64,000 nt of DNA, from NCBI GenBank assembly GCA_030581615.1, contig JAKTTT010000010.1, forward strand, positions 248,001 through 312,000, given 5' to 3'. Below are positions 49,393-50,515 of the stretch, piece after piece. This stretch comes from Alloascoidea africana (Eukaryota > Ascomycota > Alloascoideomycetes > Alloascoideales > Alloascoideaceae). Both the position numbers and the translations under genes were made by a program. Within the stretch, counting starts at the first letter, position 1, and each line of letters starts with the position of its first letter. The notes beneath the pieces are model-generated. The model did not search any database. It was not told where the DNA came from and was given only the letters and a program-made list of their open reading frames with translations.

Positions 49393-50515
49393 ATGTCAAT
49401 CCCTACCTCACAGTAAGTGTTTTATATATTTCAAATACTGGAGAGCCTTACTCTATTTTGGGGGCATTACTAACATCTTTTCTAGATTCCAGCAGTAAGT
49501 ATACCTTCCCTATGGCGCGTATGGCGTCTGTGTTGGGGAAAAGCACATGGACCATTGTATCGATAATACATGCTGACATTTTCGATCTAGATTGGAAAAA
49601 CTCGGAGAAGGCACCTATGCTACTGTCTACAAAGGGAGGAATAGGGCCACGGGGGCTCTTGTGGCGCTAAAGGAAATCAGTCTTGATTCGGAAGAAGGAA
49701 CGCCATCAACAGCAATCAGAGAGATTTCGCTGATGAAAGAGCTCAATGATGAAAGCATAGTGACATTGTATGATGTGATTCACACCGAGAACAAGTTGAC
49801 GCTGGTGTTTGAGTACATGGATAAAGATCTGAAAAAGTATATGGATGCCCATGGTCAACAGGGAGCTTTGAGTCCTGAGATTGTAAAATCATTCATGTTT
49901 CAGCTTCTACGGGGAATTATGTTTTGCCACGACAATAGAGTTCTTCATCGCGATTTAAAACCGCAAAATCTGCTAATAAACTCGAGAGGGCAACTGAAGC
50001 TTGGTGATTTTGGTTTGGCTAGGGCCTTTGGCATTCCTGTAAACACCTTCTCGAACGAAGTTGTGACGTTATGGTATAGGGCTCCTGATGTTTTGATGGG
50101 ATCTAAGAATTACTCAACCTCGATCGACATTTGGTCCGCTGGTTGTATTCTTGCAGAAATGTTTACTGGTCGACCTTTGTTTCCTGGCTCTTCGAATGAT
50201 GACCAGTTGATCAAAATATTTCGAATCATGGGCACCCCTAATGAACTTACCTGGCCCAATGTCTCGGCTTTACCAAACTATAAGCCTAATTTTCAAGTCT
50301 ATATCCCACAGGACCTTAGAGTCATTCTTCCTCAGATGGATCCAATGTCTTTGGACCTGCTTTCCGGTTTGCTGCAGATGAGGCCAGAAAGCAGGATATC
50401 AGCTCGCCAGGCCCTGGCGCATCCCTGGTTCCAAGAATATAACACGCCATTGCCACAGCAGGTTCAGATGGGATATGGTGAAAAACAACGACAGCAGCAG
50501 ATGTTTTCAATTTGA
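49393..50515 (+). CDS. PHO85: Cyclin-dependent kinase Pho85, with 9-nt microexon
   Basis: CDK acting with several cyclins in phosphate sensing, glycogen control and cell polarity. Exons 49393-49412, 49486-49494 and 49591-50515; introns of 73 bp (GTAAGT, TACTAAC, TCTAG) and 96 bp (GTAAGT, GCTGAC, TCTAG). Splicing yields [25 protein letters not shown], matching yeast MSSSSQFKQLEKLGNGTYA, so the tiny middle exon supplies FQ plus parts of both flanking Gln codons. 317 residues (yeast 305). PSTAIRE helix ([18 protein letters not shown]), [43 protein letters not shown] are intact. CTG codons encode invariant Leu in QNLL and QLKL. Confidence 0.97.
49486..49494 (+). other. PHO85: PHO85 9-nt microexon
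   Basis: ATTCCAGCA, flanked by TCTAG and GTAAGT, preceded by TACTAAC. Adds three codons' worth of sequence in phase, so inclusion or skipping would both keep the frame. Confidence 0.85.

Follow-up and report, generated by a model that had tools for sequence, protein, structure and literature searches.

A most likely constitutive, in-frame 9-nt microexon in the PHO85 gene of the yeast Alloascoidea africana

Known microexons and the structure of PHO85

In the budding yeast Y. lipolytica, 109 genes have more than one intron, and their internal exons are described as “mostly short”; the shortest, with a length of 4 nt (YALI0E34170g), was confirmed by two cDNAs (excerpts of PMC2911113). In C. elegans and mouse, microexons of up to 27 nt depend on PRP-40; they are neuronal and often alternative, and the dependence grows with intron length. 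PRP40 was required for microexons in the worm and for most of the ten that were tested in mouse cells. In yeast, PRP40 connects U1 with the branch-binding protein over the length of an intron, and the authors put forward a model, speculative by their own description, in which intron definition allows microexons to be recognised and PRP40 forms the link from U1 to the branch site (all from excerpts of PMC8378409). Fungi pair splice sites across introns, i.e. they use intron definition (excerpt of PMC6616335). S. cerevisiae PHO85 is listed among the genes with differential intron retention and hence has an intron (excerpt of PMC10897858). Literature searches yielded no work joining PHO85 with a microexon and none on a PHO85 intron by phrase, and the combination of microexon and Saccharomycotina gave nothing on the subject, judged by title. 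PHO85 is not named in the main text of PMC2911113, and word searches did not find it in PMC4202332 (“Intron Evolution in Saccharomycetaceae”) or in PMC13309789.

The PHO85 gene of A. africana is located at positions 49393-50515 on the plus strand of the window, i.e. the whole stretch of 64,000 nt that was analysed, which belongs to contig C10 of an assembly of 23.2 Mb in 138 contigs. It encodes a kinase of 317 residues after removal of two introns. Coding exon 1 (49393..49412, 20 nt) encodes MSIPTS and contributes the first two bases, CA, of the next codon. Intron 1 (49413..49485, 73 nt) has the donor GTAAGT at 49413-49418, a branch-like TACTAAC at 49468-49474 with the branch A 12 nt before the last base of the intron, and an acceptor TCTAG that ends at 49485 (TAG at 49483-49485). 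It is followed by the 9-nt exon ATTCCAGCA (49486..49494), which completes a Q, gives F and Q, and begins the next Q. Intron 2 (49495..49590, 96 nt) also starts with GTAAGT (49495-49500) and ends with TCTAG at 49590 (TAG at 49588-49590); its branch-like TGCTGAC is at 49571-49577, the branch A being 14 nt before the last base. The long exon 3 (49591..50515) ends with the residues FSI and the stop codon TGA at 50513-50515. Both introns split a codon after CA (phase 2), and the 9-nt exon has splice sites of its own that are at most 30 nt apart and in frame (TCTAG/ATTCCAGCA/GTAAGT, phase 2-2); a microexon was taken to be an internal exon no longer than 27-30 nt. The exon and intron coordinates of the initial annotation were exact when compared with the sequence letters, and the branch site that it had claimed for each intron corresponds to the two branch-like motifs. 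From its sequence, the 9-nt exon is real; most likely it is constitutive, and as an in-frame microexon it belongs to a known kind.

The exon is similar to the tiny exons of Y. lipolytica: in both budding yeasts, a gene with several introns contains an internal exon of very small size (excerpts of PMC2911113). However, the Y. lipolytica exon is cDNA-validated and its 4 nt are not a multiple of three, whereas the PHO85 exon has 9 nt and is known from sequence. Its length is also within the range of the microexons of C. elegans and mouse, but the introns of PHO85 are only 73 and 96 nt long, so that intron definition is the expected route. With Trichoderma virens Xlr2 it shares the presence of a microexon in a fungal gene, but that of Xlr2 is reported to be an alternative, glucose-dependent switch (excerpt of PMC11121469). 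Microexons of this size had been called rare in yeasts and hard to explain by exon definition. The latter part is weakened: because fungi use intron definition, a 9-nt exon poses no exon-definition problem. The former part has to be tempered in view of the precedent in Y. lipolytica and of two other tiny exons in this genome (see below).

Protein fit and chance occurrence of the 9-nt exon

The PHO85 translation contains a PSTAIRE helix, HRDLKPQN and DFG (within GDFGLARAF), the motifs of a PHO85-type cyclin-dependent kinase. The best solved relative of the spliced protein is S. cerevisiae Pho85 (2pk9, 458.9 bits, E 6.2e-137, residues 5-294), and the next-best is CDK2 with 404.8 bits. This order bears out the previous assignment: judged from its predicted protein, the gene is the PHO85 orthologue and encodes a PHO85-type cyclin-dependent kinase. 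Searches for relatives of the protein gave two pattern matches on viral contigs and 12 on genome contigs, none of which proved to be a relative by tblastn.

With the 9-nt exon, the alignment to S. cerevisiae Pho85 starts at TSQFQQLEK/SSQFKQLEK, while without it the protein reads TSQLEKLGEG. Skipping would remove the aromatic residue with which the kinase domain begins, directly ahead of the glycine-rich loop. An aromatic is found at the same place in three other kinases of the genome, which were named by reading, i.e. a CDC28-like kinase (NYQRLEKVGEG), a MAP-kinase-like kinase (DHYQIIEIVGEG, DHYQIIE), and a kinase on contig C1, termed C1 kinase here (HFKQVEIIGTG). The Pfam Pkinase match starts at position 1 for the included form (252.5 bits) and at position 3 for the skipped form (251.5 bits); this difference of only 1 bit is a consistency check, not a proof.

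Between the donor of exon 1 and the acceptor of exon 3, ten in-frame, stop-free AG...GT internal exons were enumerated (at most 120 nt long and no closer than 25 nt to either end). Only two of these restore FQQ before LEK: the 9-nt exon itself and one of 51 nt that has the same donor and adds 14 non-family residues. Alternatively, position 49412 could be spliced straight to 49591, in which case there would be no microexon and the intronic letters for FQQ would be a coincidence. The resulting protein would be in frame and would keep nearly the whole kinase domain, as its Pfam score indicates. However, the intervening sequence yields such an exon only rarely after dinucleotide shuffling. A 9-nt F-x-Q exon of the form AG/RTTYNNNCA/GT, which was picked after the site had been seen, arose in 8 of 20,000 shuffles. 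Its combination with a following GTAAGT, in the right phase, was found in none of 20,000, and neither was its combination with GTRAG and an upstream branch-like site (0 of 20,000). A scan of both strands over 264 kb of the genome found the form twice, and one of the two occurrences, the PHO85 site, is followed by GTAAGT. Direct splicing of 49412 to 49591 is thus extremely unlikely. The alignment to Pho85 and the shuffle test both support the claim of the initial annotation that a 9-nt microexon restores the N-terminus typical of the family.

Automatic intron finding with coding scores failed. In 264 kb it returned 21 candidates, whereas three decoy forms of the donor gave 19, 4, and 19; its only PHO85 row was intron 2, which had a score of -5.5, i.e. 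below the threshold and outside the 21. An earlier version of the coding-score script ranked wrong exon-3 acceptors (49610 and others) above 49590. At the PHO85 site, the coding-score script that was run on 60 pattern sites (see below) recovered the 9-nt exon, but let intron 2 extend to 49719 rather than to 49590. The failure of the scripts to recover the PHO85 structure counts, as far as coding scores can tell, against a constitutive 9-nt exon.

Splice signals and other tiny exons in the genome

Introns were instead read by hand from protein continuity, which gave 14 introns in six genes (two in PHO85, one in CDC28, two in the C1 kinase gene, three in CDC34, one in another UBC gene, and five in MAGO). 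The acceptor of the second C1 kinase intron and the MAGO junctions were chosen so as to continue the protein, and the script found no branch-like match in MAGO intron 2. The lengths in this set, the two PHO85 introns included, range from 55 to 179 nt, and the donors are GTAAGT, GTATGT, GTAAGA, GTAAGC, GTATGC, GTAGGC, and GTAAAA. The donors and branch-like sites of PHO85 resemble those of the 12 other introns. Over eleven positions, the two PHO85 donors match the U1 complement at 7 and 8, the range of the set being 6 to 9, so that they rank as ordinary to good without standing out. Both donors are preceded by an exonic A, not G, and the branch match TGCTGAC of intron 2 is weaker than TACTAAC. 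Protein fit, chance, and splice signals agree in pointing to a real exon, the chance argument resting partly on the protein argument.

The intron of the CDC28-like gene (L002, C46:123114-126638) has 56 nt, the donor GTAGGC, and the acceptor AAG, and it is situated within the glycine-rich loop (GEG/TYG). The sole U1 snRNA match is a candidate at L004:1501-1648 (C72:80972-81119) with 64.9 bits, which is under the Rfam cut-off of 69.5; its 5′ end ATACTTACCTGG is complementary to GTAAGT. A PRP40-like frame is also present in the genome; it contains one WW domain and three FF stretches. The five introns read in the MAGO orthologue (L085, C42:172617-175757) are 55-72 nt long, and its last coding exon consists of IKPI and the stop codon only. 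MAGO is an exon-junction component, and judged from this gene the yeast retains such a component.

Both PHO85 introns interrupt CA/ATT, start with GTAAGT, and end with TCTAG. It is conceivable that intron 2 arose as a copy of intron 1 that was inserted at a similar site 9 nt further downstream, which would be compatible with a constitutive microexon. However, the alignment of the two introns has a score of 14 compared to a shuffle mean of 13.7, and 234 of 500 shuffles were as good; for the intron interiors alone this was true for 416 of 500. Inclusion of 10-nt flanks raised the score to 22 (6 of 500 as good), but the best match was then the microexon stretch that is contained in both inputs. 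Such an origin is very improbable, although an old copying event could since have been erased.

The pattern CTAAC-YAG-(3 to 30 nt)-GTAAGT was found at 60 sites genome-wide (32 + 28). For comparison, the same pattern backwards was found at 230 sites (126 + 104), and therefore the count of 60 says nothing about the frequency of tiny exons. The coding-score script, run on all 60 sites, listed 68 site/length combinations; a site that it missed may still hold a tiny exon, because CDC34 got no model. Five of the sites were fully read (L025, L040, L041, L049, and PHO85), and L026 was set aside on its script line alone. Besides PHO85, two of the 60 sites have tiny exons with protein support. The first is a 26-nt internal exon of the CDC34 orthologue (L049:498-523; C11, 423067-423092), which encodes LEDDNIFHW, the W being common with the next exon. 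The spliced CDC34 fragment has 180.8 bits against the yeast E2-34 kDa protein, with a gap of one residue within the 26-nt exon, and 83.3 bits for UQ_con. The second is a likely 16-nt internal exon, CAATGGGAACTGTGTT, on the minus strand of L025 (C1:239900-240900), which encodes part of the glycine-rich loop of the C1 kinase (spliced reading IIGTG-SMGTVF-KVKSQNLQNVYAVKQI). The Pkinase match of this protein has an E value of 1.4e-6, but its 28.4 bits are below the cut-off of 31.7, and no solved relative was found at E 0.001. The 16-nt exon is thus predicted less firmly than the 26-nt exon of CDC34. Both are similar to the PHO85 exon in that they lie between introns and are needed for a conserved protein; in contrast to the PHO85 exon, their skipping shifts the frame. 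Provisionally, two neighbouring paralogues on contig C6 with no function assigned, L040 (C6:279830-280830) and L041 (C6:282220-283220), likely have a common 28-nt exon before GTAAGTCC. The few other tiny exons suggest that exons of this size can be coped with in this yeast.

Predicted splicing of the PHO85 microexon

The phase of the introns places a TAA inside the donor GTAAGT, and therefore retention leads to an immediate stop, i.e. after MSIPTSQ for intron 1 and after MSIPTSQFQQ for intron 2. In contrast, the frame is preserved by inclusion as well as by skipping of the 9-nt exon, in accordance with the frame neutrality that had been proposed for it. Skipping would generate a combined intron of 178 nt and is mechanically possible on length, because an intron of 179 nt was read in CDC34.

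These features would also fit a cassette exon, i.e. an isoform without the 9 nt (MSIPTSQLEKLGEG) that is made in some state and has an altered first kinase strand beside the glycine-rich loop. The phase is the same on both sides, the combined intron fits the size range of introns in this genome, and skipping of small exons is known from rtnA, where the exon has 15 nt in Aspergillus niger and 33 nt in Neurospora (excerpt of PMC6616335). However, the skipping in rtnA needs a stwintron, in which one intron obtains its donor, branch site, or acceptor only once the other has been removed. By eye, neither of the PHO85 junctions, CTCACA/ATTCCAGCA and CAGCA/ATTGGAA, creates a new splice site, and no stwintron was read. 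In addition, the inner splice sites both give the impression of strength (GTAAGT on one side; TACTAAC, at 12 nt from the end of the intron, on the other), and the skipped form would lose the aromatic that is found in the three other kinases. A cassette exon is therefore improbable. It is highly unlikely that the nutrient state controls inclusion and thereby generates two Pho85 forms that differ in the first kinase strand and in cyclin or nucleotide affinity; regulated skipping is no more than a possibility.

A constitutive 9-nt exon with flanking introns that are each recognised across the intron is highly probable. Each intron would be recognised on its own, with U1 binding at GTAAGT, and with U2 and the branch-binding protein at the branch site close by; the spliceosome would thus never need to span the small exon. 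The two introns are probably removed in turn, because the splice-site sets are only 9 nt apart and the factors would hardly fit at once. The PRP40-like protein may act at the microexon, and inclusion would supply the start of the kinase domain with the aromatic just before the glycine-rich loop. The actual splicing, the order of intron removal, and the constitutive status are inferred from the DNA sequence.

Existing knowledge is not overturned, because a smaller exon is already on record in a yeast. PHO85 offers a clean natural test of intron definition: the gene is conserved, only 9 nt separate its two full splice-site sets, and the outcomes are distinguishable, i.e. an immediate stop upon retention and an in-frame product upon skipping. 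In this genome, annotation errors may be expected for PHO85, CDC34, and another kinase gene if the gene finder imposes a lower limit on exon length.
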